Below are positions 9,325 to 15,186 of a stretch of 20,630 nt of DNA, one piece after another. A program made the position numbers and the translations under genes. Under the pieces are notes generated by a model. The model searched no databases. It was given only the letters and a program-made list of their open reading frames with translations, and was not told where the DNA came from. The stretch is from a bacterium. Lineage in GTDB: Bacteria; Blakebacterota; Blakebacteria; Blakebacterales; Blakebacteraceae. The stretch covers positions 1-20,630 of the forward strand of contig JALGWK010000015.1 of assembly GCA_025774205.1 (NCBI GenBank), in the 5' to 3' direction. Each line of letters starts with the position of its first letter. Position 1 is the first letter of the stretch.

Positions 9325-9606
9325 TCAGAGAAGCTCCAGGGAATAATCCTGAAGCTGGCAGGAGGGATCACGTTCCACCCGCTCCACCACCTTGCTCAGA
9401 ACCCTGTTCGCGAAGGCACGGTCCGTACTCACCACCGCCACTCCCAGTCGGGCCGACTGATGAAGATCCTGCTTCTCCACCTCAGCCACGCTCACATTGA
9501 AATCCCGCTGCAGACGCGAAATGAGTTTCCTGAGCAGTCCCCTCTTCTCCTTGAGGGACCTGCACCCGGGGAGGTAGAGATCTATCGTCAGGGTCCCGAG
9601 GGTCAC
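9325..9606 (-). CDS. ylxP: DUF503 family protein, YlxP-like
   Basis: A 93-residue protein with the DUF503 pattern: an N-terminal strand (GTLTIDLYLPGCRSLKEKR), a helix with LLRKLISRLQRDFNVSVAEV, and the conserved QSARLGVAVVS segment. The family is small, cytosolic and almost always sits between infB and rbfA, as here; a role in 30S assembly or initiation has been proposed, but I cannot assign a biochemical activity. The start is GTG at 9606, overlapping the infB TGA as GTGA, so it depends on ribosomes finishing infB. Confidence 0.93.
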   Translation of the reverse strand: MTLGTLTIDLYLPGCRSLKEKRGLLRKLISRLQRDFNVSVAEVEKQDLHQSARLGVAVVSTDRAFANRVLSKVVERVERDPSCQLQDYSLELL

Positions 9607-12437
9607 GCCTGTTCACCGAGCGTCCGCGCGACCTCTTCGATCTCATACACCTCGATCAGATCACCCACCTTGACATCATTGAAGTTCTCGATGCCGATAC
9701 CGCATTCGAAGCCCTGCTTGACCTCCTTGGCATCTTCCTTGAACCTTCTCAGGCTTCCGACCCGGCCGTCGTAGACGACGATCCCCTCCCGGACGAGTCG
9801 GACCTTGCTCTTCCGTGTGATCATGCCCTCGACAACCATCGAACCGGCGATTGTACCAACCTTTGGTACACGGAAGATCTCCCGTACCTCGATCGTCCCC
9901 GTGACCTCTTCATTGATGTGCGGTTTCAGCAGCCCTTCGAGGCCGAGTTTGATCTCTTCGACCGCCTCATAGATGATGTCGTAGAGTCGGATCTCCACCT
10001 TCAGCTGTTCGGCGACGTCCCGCGCGTTCTTGTCAGGCCTGACATGGAATCCAACGATGATCGCGTCTGAGGTCTGGGCCAGCATCACATCAGATTCGTT
10101 GATGCCGCCAACACCCTGGTGGATGACCTTCACCATCACCTCGTCGGTGCTCAGCTTGTGAAAGGAATCGCTGAGAGCTTCCATCGATCCGTCGGTGTCG
10201 GCTTTCACGATCAACGGCAGTGCACTGATTTCGCCCTGCTCGATCCGCGCTCTCACATCACTGAGACTTGTCGCCTCGCGAACCGCGAATTCCTGCTGAC
10301 GACGGATCTGCTGACGCTTCTGGGAGAGGACCCGGGCCTCCTTCTCGTCGGCCAGGGTATGGAATGAGTCACCCGGCTGCGGCAGTCCATCGAACCCGAG
10401 GATCTGCACAGCCTGGGAGGGGTGCACGTCCCTGCGGGGACGTCCACGCTGATCGAAGAGCGCTCTGGCCCTGCCGGAATGGAGTCCGGCCAGAAAGGCA
10501 TCCCCTTCCTTCAGTTCACCCTTCTGCACCAGGATGGTGGCCACCGGACCGCGACCCTTGTCGAGCTCGGCCTCGATGACGACCCCCCGGGCCAGGCCGG
10601 TCCGGTCCGCTTTCAGTTCCAGCATATCGGCCTGAAGGAGGAGGAGCTCCAGCAGTCGGTCAACCCCTTCTCCCGACTTCGCTGAAACCGGTACGGCAAC
10701 GGTCTCACCGCCATATTCCTCCACCACGATGCTCTGGGCCATCAGCTGCTGCTTGACGCCGTCCGGGTCGGCGTCGGGGAGATCGATCTTGTTGATGGCC
10801 ACGACGATCGGCACCCCGGCGGCCTTGGCATGGTTGATGGCCTCTACAGTCTGGGGCATGACCTTGTCATCAGCAGCGACCACGAGCACCACGATATCTG
10901 TCAGTGACGCGCCCCTGGCCCGCATGGCCGTGAACGCCTCGTGACCGGGCGTGTCGAGGAAGGTGATGGTCCCGTGGGCAGTCTCTACCTCATAGGCCCC
11001 GATGTGCTGGGTAATCCCTCCCACTTCACCTGCCACGACGGTCGTCTGCCGGATGTAATCGAGCAGAGAGGTCTTACCGTGGTCGACATGCCCCATGACA
11101 GTCACTACCGGGGCGCGCGAGACCAGATCTCCCTCTTCGCCCGAATCCTCTACTTCATCGAACATATCCGCGCCGAATTCATCTATCGATTCGACCTCGA
11201 AACCGAATTCGTCGGCGATGAATTCGATCGTCTCCATGTCGAGACGCTGGTTGATCGTGACCACAAAGCCCAGCTGGAAACAGGCCGCAATGATATCGCT
11301 CGGTCGCACTTCCATCTGGGAAGCCAGTTCAGAGACAGAGGCGAACTCGGTGATCTGGATCACCTTATGCTCCTCGACCTCCATGGTCTCGATCTCTTCG
11401 CCCTCGGCGGTACGCCGGCGACGCTTCCCCTTCGATCTTCCGGGACCGCTGCGGATGTCTGCCAGGGTCTCCTTGATCGTCGTGCGGACCTCTTCCTGGT
11501 CGACTACCTTCCGGCCCTTCTTCCGCTTCTTCTTCTTCCGGGGTGAGGTATCCACTGCCGGACGCGGAGCAGGTCGGCGCTCCTTGACCTGGGGAGCGCG
11601 CCGCTCGATGATCTTCGGCCCTTCCCCTTCTGTTTCCCTTAATTCCTTGCTCTGTCTGATCCGCTCCCGCAGGCTCGATCCCGAGAGTCGACCGGCCTTC
11701 ACCGCTTCATCTTCGACTGGGGCCACGGCTTCAACGGTTTCTGCTTCCTTCGCAGCCTCCTCCGTCGCCGTGGCTGTCTCTTCCCCGGCCTCTTCCCCAG
11801 CCTCTTCGACGGCCTCTTCGACAGTCTCTTCCCCGGCAGCTTCGACCTCGACCGGTTCAGCCTCCTCGATCCCGATCGTCTCCACTTCCTCGACAACTGC
11901 CTCAACCGCTTCCAGTATCACTGCCTGGACCGCTTCGTTGTCGGGTAATTCCGCCTGAGCCGCGGCCTCCAGCTCGGCCTGCTGCTTCGCTTCGGTAGCC
12001 TGCTGCTTCACCTCGGCAGCCTGCTGAATCAGGCGTTCGGCCTCAGCCTTGGCCCGGGCAAGTTTCTCGGCGACCCTGCTCGTGCCAGCATCGACCGGCT
12101 TCTTCCGGGCAGGACGGCCTTCAGGCGGGGCCTCCTGTTCAGCCTTCTGCTTCGTCGTCGCCTCACGTTCGGCCCGCACAGCCACTTTCTCTGCCTCTTC
12201 GAGGGCCTTGCGCTTTTCTGCCACTTCCTTTTTGCGGACGTCACCAGCCTTCGACTCAGCCTTCAGGCTTTCGAAGTACTCTTCGACCGCAAGTATCATG
12301 GATTCGTTGACGGGGCTCATATGGCTCTTGATCTCGAAACCCAGACCCTGAAGCACTTCGATCATCGCCTGGCTGGAGATCTTGAACTCCCGGGCCGCGT
12401 CATATACTCGGTTCTGCTTGGTCAAGCCTGCCTCCAT
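9603..12437 (-). CDS. infB: Translation initiation factor IF-2
   Basis: The GTPase that brings initiator fMet-tRNA to the 30S subunit and promotes subunit joining. Of 944 residues, about 60-300 form a charged Glu/Ala-rich extension (repeated [15 protein letters not shown]-like runs), followed by a basic patch [10 protein letters not shown] (about 301-310) and an IF2-N domain (about 355-415). The GTPase domain has GHVDHGKT (449-456), DTPGHEAF (495-502) and NKID (549-552). Domains II to IV follow, ending in the fMet-tRNA-binding C2 region. The given start is ATG at 12437, but TTG at 12425 is at least as likely: it has GGAGG at 5 nt and gives [14 protein letters not shown], matching the usual IF-2 N-terminus. 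The upstream gene is the ylxQ-like gene, 37 nt away. Confidence 0.97.
12431..12435 (-). promoter_or_regulatory. Ribosome binding site pointing to a TTG start of infB
   Basis: GGAGG lies 5 nt before TTG at 12425-12423. The sequence before the ATG at 12437 has no comparable purine element. The motif therefore favours TTG as the true infB start, which would shorten the protein by four residues. Confidence 0.55.
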
Positions 12438-12474: not shown

Positions 12475-12792
12475 TCACTCACCGGACTCTGCGGCCGCTC
12501 CCACCAATTCCAGAAGCGCGCCGGTCAGACCGGCATCCGTCACCGCAACCACTGCGACCTCTTTGCGGCCGAGGGCCCGCCCCATCTCTGTCCTCGTGCC
12601 CCACCTGGTCAACGGAGTGTCTTCTCCCCGGCAGAGGCTTTCCATCTCGGCAACCAGGGCCCCGCCAGCGTCAACAGTCATGAACACATGGACCGTCTGT
12701 CGCCTGTGAACGGCATCCCGAACCCGATCCCGTCCCACTACTGCGTTGCGGCCCCGGTACGCCATTCCGATCAGGTCAGAGAACTGGTTCAT
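12475..12792 (-). CDS. Ribosomal L7Ae-like protein, YlxQ type
   Basis: A 105-residue product from ATG at 12792. It shows the L7Ae/L30e/YlxQ pattern: LIGMAYRGRNAVVGRDRVRDAV at the N-terminus (read as LIGMAYRGRN then AVVGRDRVRDAV), then a hydrophobic strand VHVFMTVDAGG, and near the end MGRALGRKEVAVVAVTDAGL, which matches the family's E-L-G-x-x-x-G-R...V-A-V-x-D signature. The family binds kink-turn RNA, and the ylxQ position between nusA and infB is standard. The ATG is inside the end of the acidic repeat frame (stop at 12776), a 17-nt overlap, and has no good Shine-Dalgarno, so it probably depends on translation of that frame. The same frame stays open upstream to 13440 through basic-reading repeats, so a longer fused product cannot be excluded. 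ylxR is absent. Confidence 0.85.
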   Translation of the reverse strand: MNQFSDLIGMAYRGRNAVVGRDRVRDAVHRRQTVHVFMTVDAGGALVAEMESLCRGEDTPLTRWGTRTEMGRALGRKEVAVVAVTDAGLTGALLELVGAAAESGE

Positions 12793-13307
12793 CAGTCTCA
12801 TCGTCTGTCGCGGCCGACGTCTCCTCAGGGAGTTCGGCGTCCACTTCGGTCTCTGCCGCTTCCTCAACCGGTGTCTCGGCGTCCACTTCGGTCTCTGCCG
12901 CTTCCTCAACCGGTGTCTCGGCGTCCACTTCGGTCTCTGCCGCTTCCTCAACCGGTGTCTCGGCGTCCATCTCTGTCTCTGTCGCTTCCTCAACCGGTGT
13001 CTCGGCGTCCACTTCGGTCTCTGCCGCTTCCTCAACCGGTGTCTCGGCGTCCACCTCTGTCTCTGTCGCTTCCTCAACCGGTGTCTCGGCGTCCACACCA
13101 CTTCTGTCTCTGTCGCTTCCTCAACCGGTGTCTCGGCGACCACCTCTGTCTCTGTCGCTTCCTCAACCGGTGTCTCGGCGACCACTTCGGTCTCTGCTGC
13201 GGCCGGCTCCACCGGCTCTTCTTCCTCTTCGGTAGTCACAGCCTCGGCCTCATCCCGTGATTCGCTCTTCCGAAGGATATCCGGATCGATAACCCAATCG
13301 GCCTCAT
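12776..13307 (-). pseudogene. Acidic repeat coding region, frame-interrupted; probable former C-terminal tail of NusA
   Basis: Directly after the nusA TGA, frame A encodes NEADWVIDPDILRKSESRDE, then a Glu-rich stretch and copies of AETPVEEATETEV. At 13097-13101 an extra 5 nt shifts the acidic reading to frame B, which continues as repeats of AETEVDAETPVEEA and ends in ATDDETDEPVL at a TGA at 12776. Frame B has a TGA just upstream of the insertion, so the acidic protein cannot be read through without a shift. One added base at the nusA stop (ACCTGA to ACCCTGA) plus removal of the 5 nt would join nusA to a tail of about 175 residues, ending where ylxQ begins. The alternative is a separate gene with an unclear start (a GTG at 13239 is possible). 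Assembly error in a repeat is also possible. Confidence 0.5.
12839..13200 (-). repeat. 42-bp tandem repeat, about eight copies plus a partial
   Basis: Contiguous copies start at 12839, 12881, 12923, 12965, 13007, 13049, 13091 (47 nt, carrying the 5-nt insertion) and 13138, with a decaying partial copy from 13180. There are no spacers. Two subtypes differ at three or so bases (GCA/ACA, ACC/ACA, GAA/GAG codons in the acidic frame), and the unit at 12965 has ATG for GTG. Copies at 13138 and beyond encode VVA; those at 12839-13090 encode VDA; the unit with the insertion sits exactly at that border. Two of the three subtype differences are synonymous in the acidic frame but only one in the basic frame, weakly favouring the acidic frame as coding. 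Confidence 0.97.
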
Positions 13308-14657
13308 TCAGGTGAAGAGATCCTCGATCGAGTCCTTGTCGGGATCGAGATCGGCGACCCTGATCTCCGCCTCCACCCGTTCCGGCGGTACGTATTCCTC
13401 TCCGGTGAATACCTCGAACTTGGCGATGATCGAGTTGCACGTTGCTGGACCGATACCCGGTATGGCCTGGATCTCCTCGATGGTCAGCTCGAGGATGTCC
13501 TGCACGTATTCGACTCCCGCCGTGCGCAGTTTCTCCGCCTGGGCGGCTGTGATGTCGAGTTCATTGATACGCTGGAAGACCCCTTCCACTTCCTTCAGGG
13601 CCCGCTCGTATTCCGTATCGGAGACCACGTCTATCTGGTACCCCACCAGTTCCCCGGCCAGACGGGCATTGGTTCCGCCCGGTCCCAGAGCCAGCGCGAT
13701 CTGGTCTTCCGGCAGAATGAGGGTGAGTTCCTTCCGTTCTTCATCGATCAGTACCCGGCTGACCTTGGCCGGTCCGATGGCCTTGGTCACGAAGAAGATC
13801 ACGTCGGGACTCCAGGGCACGATATCGATCCGCTCGTTGTTCAGTTCCCGGACGATACTCTGGACCCGCGAGCCCTTCATACCGACACACGCTCCGACCG
13901 CATCCACCCGGAGATCGTGGCTCCTCACGGCGACCTTGCACCGTTCGCCCGGTGCCCTGGCGACCATTTTGATCTCCACGATTCCTTCATAGATTTCGGG
14001 AACCTCGATCGCGAACAGCTTCCTGACGAACATTTCATCGCCCCGGCTCAGCACGATCGACGGACCCTTGGCGTTCATCGAGACTTCCTTGACCAGCGCG
14101 CGGATCGTGTCTCCCTGCCTGAATCGTTCGCGTCTGATCTGCTCCCGGTAGGGGAGGATCGCCTCGACCCGGCCGATATTGACCAGCAATGTGCCGCGGG
14201 TGACCTGCTGAACGCTGCCGGTGATGATCTCCCCCTCACGATCGAGGTATTCCTCGAAGATCTTGTCCCGCTCAGCTTCCCTGATCCGCTGCTGCAGGAC
14301 CTGTTTGGCGGCCTGGATGGCCGTACGGCCGAATTCGGCCACCGGTACGTCGACGTTGAGGTGCCAGCCGACCTCGGTGTCGGGATCGAGTTCTTTCGCC
14401 ATCTCGAGGGTGATCTGCAGGAGTGGCTCCTCGATCTCCTCGGCTGTCGCCACGACTTCCTTCACGATTCCGATCGAGATCTCCCCGGTGTCCCTGTCGA
14501 CGTCGATATCGACCGGATCGAGGGTCCCGAGAGCCCTCTTGGCGGCTGTCAGAAGCCCGATCTCGAGACTCTCGAGAACGATCTCCCGCTTCAGATTCCG
14601 CTCCCTGGCTATCTGGCTCAGAGCTTCGATAATCTCATAGTTGATGTCTTCTGCCAT
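13308..14657 (-). CDS. nusA: Transcription termination/antitermination factor NusA
   Basis: Binds RNA polymerase and nascent RNA to modulate pausing, intrinsic termination and antitermination. The 449-residue reading frame has the N-terminal RNAP-binding domain (1 to about 125), an S1 domain (about 137-201, GSVQQVTRGTLLVNIG), KH1 with VDAVGACVGMKGSRVQSI and KH2 with ALGPGGTNARLAGELVGYQID. A helix-hairpin-helix-like C-terminal segment follows (LTIEEIQAIPGIGPATCNSI). It ends in EDLFT at a TGA. The ATG has GGAGG 4 nt upstream, beneath a small hairpin. The stop may be accidental: a one-base change would continue the frame into the acidic repeat region, so the native protein may be longer. It sits between rimP and ylxQ-infB, the canonical operon order. 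Confidence 0.97.
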   Translation of the reverse strand: MAEDINYEIIEALSQIARERNLKREIVLESLEIGLLTAAKRALGTLDPVDIDVDRDTGEISIGIVKEVVATAEEIEEPLLQITLEMAKELDPDTEVGWHLNVDVPVAEFGRTAIQAAKQVLQQRIREAERDKIFEEYLDREGEIITGSVQQVTRGTLLVNIGRVEAILPYREQIRRERFRQGDTIRALVKEVSMNAKGPSIVLSRGDEMFVRKLFAIEVPEIYEGIVEIKMVARAPGERCKVAVRSHDLRVDAVGACVGMKGSRVQSIVRELNNERIDIVPWSPDVIFFVTKAIGPAKVSRVLIDEERKELTLILPEDQIALALGPGGTNARLAGELVGYQIDVVSDTEYERALKEVEGVFQRINELDITAAQAEKLRTAGVEYVQDILELTIEEIQAIPGIGPATCNSIIAKFEVFTGEEYVPPERVEAEIRVADLDPDKDSIEDLFT

Positions 14658-14691: not shown

Positions 14692-15186
14692 TTAGAGACT
14701 GATCTCTATTCTTCCTTCGCGGATATGGGAGAGCGTCACCCTGATCGGCGCGCCTTTTTCACCCGAACCGCCCTGTTTACCTTTCACCTTCACCGGCGGA
14801 TCGAGGAGCAGATCGTCATCCAGCACCCCGGTGAGCAGACCCAGGATGGTCCTGCTCCCGCCATCTTCCTCCTCAACATCGAGCCTGAGCTGTTCGCCTA
14901 TGACCCGTTCGAAATCCCGCCGACTGTGCAACCGCCGGTCGAGTCCGGGTGAGGAGACCTCTATCGACAGCGATCCCTGCACGAAATCGTCATGCTCCAG
15001 GGCCCGGACAAGACGCCGGTTTATCCTGGTGCAATCCTCGATCGTCACTCCCTCCGGGCGCCAGATGAAGACCTTGATACGCTGTTTGCCCGAATGGACG
15101 GTCTCGACCATTTCGATCCCGTCTTCCAGGTCGATGATCTGCTGGACGTATCCGTCTACCAGCGTTTTCTGTTTCGATTCCTCCAC
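14692..15186 (-). CDS. rimP: Ribosome maturation factor RimP
   Basis: Needed for efficient 30S assembly. The 164-residue product shows the RimP core: GIEMVETVHSGKQRIKVFIW for the first strand pair (read as GIEMVETVHS then GKQRIKVFIW), GVTIEDCTRINRRLVRALE, and the hallmark LSIEVSSPGLDRRL with RDFERVIGEQLRLDV. The C-terminal domain contains an Arg/Gly/Lys-rich insertion before IRVTLSHIREGRIEISL. The start is GTG at 15186, the only start codon in frame upstream of the conserved region before a TAA; its Shine-Dalgarno (GGTGGGCAG) is poor. It is the first gene after the long leader region and is followed by nusA 34 nt later. Confidence 0.95.
   Translation of the reverse strand: MEESKQKTLVDGYVQQIIDLEDGIEMVETVHSGKQRIKVFIWRPEGVTIEDCTRINRRLVRALEHDDFVQGSLSIEVSSPGLDRRLHSRRDFERVIGEQLRLDVEEEDGGSRTILGLLTGVLDDDLLLDPPVKVKGKQGGSGEKGAPIRVTLSHIREGRIEISL

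Follow-up and report, generated by a model that had tools for sequence, protein, structure and literature searches.

In Escherichia coli NusA, the part behind KH2 is acidic and holds two domains, AR1 and AR2, which are folded and HhH-like. AR2 is autoinhibitory: in free NusA it masks KH1, and on RNAP it binds the alpha-CTD; IF2, through its N-terminal domain, is a partner of KH2-AR1 (PMC12297416). The NusA encoded in the window (the whole stretch of DNA that was analysed, 20,630 nucleotides) also has an acidic C-terminal part behind KH2 with an HhH/AR-like domain, but it carries one such domain only, followed by a repeat of 14 residues without a Pfam match. No account of such a tail was found in the literature on NusA C-terminal extensions. 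The delta subunit (RpoE) of Firmicutes RNA polymerase has an acidic, disordered C-terminal tail that is thought to mimic nucleic acid; its folded part is unrelated to NusA, and the likeness is one of action only, by analogy. The reading of the locus that we consider probable is that NusA of this lineage ends in an acidic tail, predicted to be a disordered polyanion, and that the gene is cut into three frames here by probable assembly artefacts.

As it stands, the nusA open reading frame occupies 14657-13308 of the minus strand, encodes 449 amino acids and ends in ...DSIEDLFT at a TGA (13310-13308). Pfam identified NusA_N, S1 and KH domains in that order (PF08529, PF00575 and PF13184, E values from 9e-34 to 1e-8), and the protein was accordingly assigned to NusA. 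Behind KH2 lies one folded HhH/alpha-CTD-like (AR-like) domain (13416-13580, minus strand), matched above cut-offs by PF03118 at residues 360-414 and by PF14520 at residues 369-413; it is intact, lies upstream of the nusA stop, and is of the kind found in NusA proteins with an AR-type C-terminal domain. The order rimP-nusA-ylxQ-infB is present in the window, with a rimP-like frame at 14692-15186 and an infB-like frame at 9603-12437 (both named by sight), and a ylxQ-like gene of the L7Ae family at 12475-12792 of the minus strand (PF01248), which has matches in the genomes G001 and G002. The same order was found in locus L031 of G002 and also in G001, where a contig gap interrupts it.

Past the nusA stop, the DNA reads in another frame of the minus strand as LNEADWVIDPDILRKSE followed by about nine acidic units of 14 residues. 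From CTG AAT GAG at 13311, this frame (frame A) opens as LNEADWVIDPDILRKSESRDEAEAVTTEEEEEPVEP... and continues into AETPVEEATETEVV units; its reading from the CTG is LNEADWVIDPDILRKSESRDEAEAVTTEEEEEPVEPAAAETEV, and the 14-residue units that follow have the form AETPVEEATETEV[V/D]. At the first frame break (13308-13311), the homologous reading thus goes on one base back from the nusA TGA, with the CTG at 13311-13309. A first tail segment (13102-13308) comprises the motif DWVIDPDILRK (13267-13299; DWVIDTEILRK in L031), a Glu-rich linker and the first two repeat units, which are of the V type. The second break is an extra GTGGT at 13101-13097, located exactly where V-type units (GTGGTC) give way to D-type units (GTGGAC). 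Past 13097, the peptide units carry on in the third minus frame, and this second segment (12776-13096) consists of D-type units and ends in ...DETDEPVL at a TGA (12778-12776), an ending matched by EEPVL and a stop in L048, a locus of G001. A scan of codon usage, with the genes in the window as training set and without open reading frame information for the tail, placed the switches of minus frame at 13310/13311 and 13095/13096. Both tail frames were strongly coding (codon log-odds of +32.4 and +50.6 nats), the other minus frames being negative, and the codon signal, the motif and the acidic composition were kept in the two segments without further stops. The original prediction had located the nusA stop, the tail frame, the 5-nt insertion at 13097 and the end at 12776, and these positions were right wherever they were checked. 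Its proposal that one extra base at the stop restores the frame is one solution among several: the window has a shorter linker between the HhH domain and the motif than L031 does, so that a single missing C is not required and the first lesion may be larger. Only the effect of this lesion on the frame is fixed (-1 modulo 3).

The window is contig C502 of assembly G000, which has 527 contigs and is 86% complete. Of the sixty genomes searched, one other shares the genus, two share the family and the rest are related only at the domain level; given so few close genomes among the 60, the lineage is regarded as an isolated branch. In L031, which belongs to the same family and another genus, a single open frame of 264 residues extends from KH2 to ...GDQEQGRD and a stop, taking in the HhH domain, DWVIDTEILRKTEERDE and an acidic tail (...TGETYAPPERE...VVEGLDEKDWVIDTEILRKTEERDEDAP... 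to the end), and its end overlaps ylxQ. The tail frame of the window aligned to L031 with 14/20 identical residues (E 1e-7), a score reached by 0 of 2000 shuffles. In the same genus, contig C44 of G001 (L048) opens within the tail, reads ETPEEPAVEEPGEEPVL and ends in ...EEPGEEPVL, with a stop that overlaps ylxQ by 20 nt; the other contig of that genome, C35, stops inside nusA codon 33, and an assembly gap extends from there to the tail end on C44. The contig scan for a closer complete nusA copy turned up nothing beyond the truncated nusA contig of G001 and NusA proteins of more remote bacteria, and no nusA match was found in G003. The nusA contig of the same-genus genome bears the name Meg19_1012_Bin_119, and a metagenome-assembled genome (MAG) of that series is listed from hydrothermal sediment of the Guaymas Basin (PMC10553843).

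Since the reading is a single frame in L031 and its end overlaps ylxQ in L048, the acidic tail is the ancestral C-terminus of NusA, with a conserved ylxQ overlap. The original prediction of an ancestral NusA with an acidic tail in this frame, coupled to ylxQ, is borne out by these two relatives, and the check that it had proposed, a comparison of NusA and of the nusA-ylxQ gap with close relatives, came out in its favour, the frame of L031 being continuous. The tail of the lineage measures 128 to about 175 residues and is acidic and of low complexity. In the C-terminal part of the protein, the HhH/AR-like domain is succeeded by the short motif DWVIDxxILRKxE, which is conserved, and this by Glu/Asp-rich sequence that in this genus has expanded into the 14-residue tandem repeat. 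In the window, the start of ylxQ overlaps the tail end (DEPVL and the stop) by about 17 nt. Because the tail stops just inside ylxQ, translational coupling of the two genes is probable.

Tandem Repeats Finder delimited the array to 12834-13197 (minus strand), with a unit of 42 bp, or 14 residues (AETPVEEATETEV[V/D]), and about 8.5 copies. With the two segments joined, the tail has 40% D/E and a net charge of -68 over 177 residues, and that of L031 has 34% D/E and -36 over 128 residues. The tail was also considered as an AR domain and rejected, the second segment being a low-complexity 14-residue repeat for which no Pfam match was found. The out-of-frame part is a low-complexity acidic tail, and not an acidic-repeat domain in the E. 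coli sense. Acidic NusA tails are not unique to the lineage, as several NusA proteins from other phyla in the sample end Glu-rich. Two of them (L006 and L009) share with the window an acidic low-complexity stretch after the HhH domain, which in L006 reaches 40% D/E after KH2; they differ in that neither the DWVIDxxILRK motif nor the 14-residue repeat was seen among the C-termini listed.

Regarding the origin of the interruption, both frame breaks are most likely assembly artefacts, a view that derives from controls in the same assembly (40 sampled stretches of G000, 216 kb without N). A DPP-IV/S9 peptidase gene (L064:4214-6181, G000:C503) is split into three frames with exact tandem duplications of 22 and 17 nt (L064:4920 and 5152), and its consecutive Pfam DPPIV_N matches cover 44-158, 155-231 and 227-354. 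A copper-type heavy-metal P-ATPase (L068:1874-4127, G000:C507) loses its frame near L068:3940, the missing stretch presumably being part of the hinge region, and another 22-nt duplication lies within a coding frame of L071. In the sister MAG, rplP (L16; L092:16250-16684, G001:C28) is broken by an exact tandem duplication of 35 bp; since L16 belongs to the core ribosomal proteins, a genuine break there is improbable. The duplications in the peptidase gene and in rplP are probable assembly errors. Exact tandem duplications of a length not divisible by three numbered six in 216 kb of G000 and one in 142 kb of G001, counts that are too few to prove G000 worse than its sister and include some duplications not clearly in genes; the argument for an artefact therefore rests on the individual broken genes. 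The GTGGT lesion is a near-duplication of the adjoining GTGGA inside the repeat array, of the same character as the duplications in the control. The original prediction had left truncation, phase variation and mis-assembly side by side; of these, mis-assembly fits best since frame-breaking duplications occur elsewhere in the same assembly. Phase variation and programmed frameshifting found no support. Against an artefact, the evidence at the first break is weaker, this being a plain indel about 110 bases outside the array and without tandem duplication. Moreover, the in-frame arrays of rpsE (33 bp) and of an L30-like gene (15 bp) in the same genome were assembled without indels, so that repeats alone are not always a cause of error here.

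The position of the first break outside the repeat, with no duplication, would also suit true mutations in the strain that truncated NusA at EDLFT and left the tail as a recent pseudogene remnant, and E. coli does cope without the C-terminal AR1-AR2 region of NusA (PMC12297416). If so, the tail would be dispensable. We consider such a loss unlikely: it must be very recent, since codon signal, motif and acidity are kept in both segments, it needs two independent hits in about 210 bases, and other frame-breaking duplications are present in the same assembly.

Much less probable still is regulated expression, in which a programmed -1 frameshift, or phase variation through slippage, would yield a short and a long NusA. 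The tail frame is indeed -1 relative to nusA and open directly behind its stop, and phase variation usually acts on tandem repeats and micro-duplications. However, no slippery heptamer of the X XXY YYZ type was found in CTCTTCACCTGA, the codons at the stop (CTC TTC ACC TGA) offering neither such a site nor a homopolymer tract, as a programmed -1 shift would call for; the predicted fold downstream of the first break was nothing unusual (z -0.50), and sequence inspection found no slippery site, homopolymer or usable restart. A second shift would also be required within the array, and L031 has a shift at neither place. The locus does not have the make-up of a phase-variable contingency gene, one break being an insert of 5 nt and the other a short indel that lies beyond the array; because the 42-bp unit is in frame, a change in copy number leaves the frame unchanged and cannot act as a switch, and phase variation is thus unsupported. 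That the tail belongs to a small gene of its own, placed between nusA and ylxQ, is the least credible reading, for although GTG-start frames exist in the tail frames (13440 and 13096), the first start lies inside nusA where its frame scores as non-coding and the second inside the repeat, and the single frame that motif and acidic region share with nusA in L031 rules such a gene out for the related genus.

As for its mode of action, the tail may be a disordered polyanion whose charge lets it compete for the positive RNA-binding face (S1-KH1-KH2), or for partners that are basic. A long polyanion beside that face would be expected to rival RNA or to retain basic partners. Such a tail would tune the contacts of NusA in a manner resembling AR2 of E. 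coli, and DWVIDxxILRK could serve as a short docking motif; the contact with the alpha subunit of RNAP suggested in the original prediction is conjectural. Electrostatic autoinhibition or tuning by the tail is put forward tentatively as the best guess, at somewhat short of even odds. A wider scheme, in which the conserved hydrophobic motif and the polyanionic repeat tail modulate transcription-translation contacts and this species is losing or switching the tail by frameshift, is improbable.

Charged extensions were also observed on other proteins of the lineage. Ribosomal protein S5 (rpsE; L051:1501-2535 in G000:C361 and L049:902-1840 in G001:C28) carries at its C-terminus, in each of the two species of the genus, an acidic, Pro/Ala-rich extension of about 145-180 residues, with a 33-bp in-frame repeat in G000. 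The gene next to it (L051:2538-3122 and L049:333-899), whose C-terminal part resembles ribosomal protein L30 and which is putatively assigned to it, has an N-terminal Lys/Ala/Thr repeat extension (15-bp unit, 13.6 copies in G000), and this polycation adjoins the polyanion of S5. In the window, infB (9603-12437), which shares its operon with the acidic-tailed nusA, encodes a long N-terminal region with Ala/Glu-rich low-complexity repeats, with Tandem Repeats Finder arrays at 11776-11846 and 11977-12026.

For annotation, these results amount to a correction: at about 620 residues instead of 449, NusA of the lineage would include a repeat tail that is strongly acidic, and a tryptic peptide at the tail motif would end in ...NEADWVIDPDILR. 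In draft MAGs, tandem repeats and micro-duplications can make a gene look truncated or phase-variable. Several core gene-expression proteins of this lineage carry charged low-complexity extensions, NusA along with S5, the L30-like protein and IF2, and these charged tails raise the question of polyelectrolyte tails in transcription and translation.
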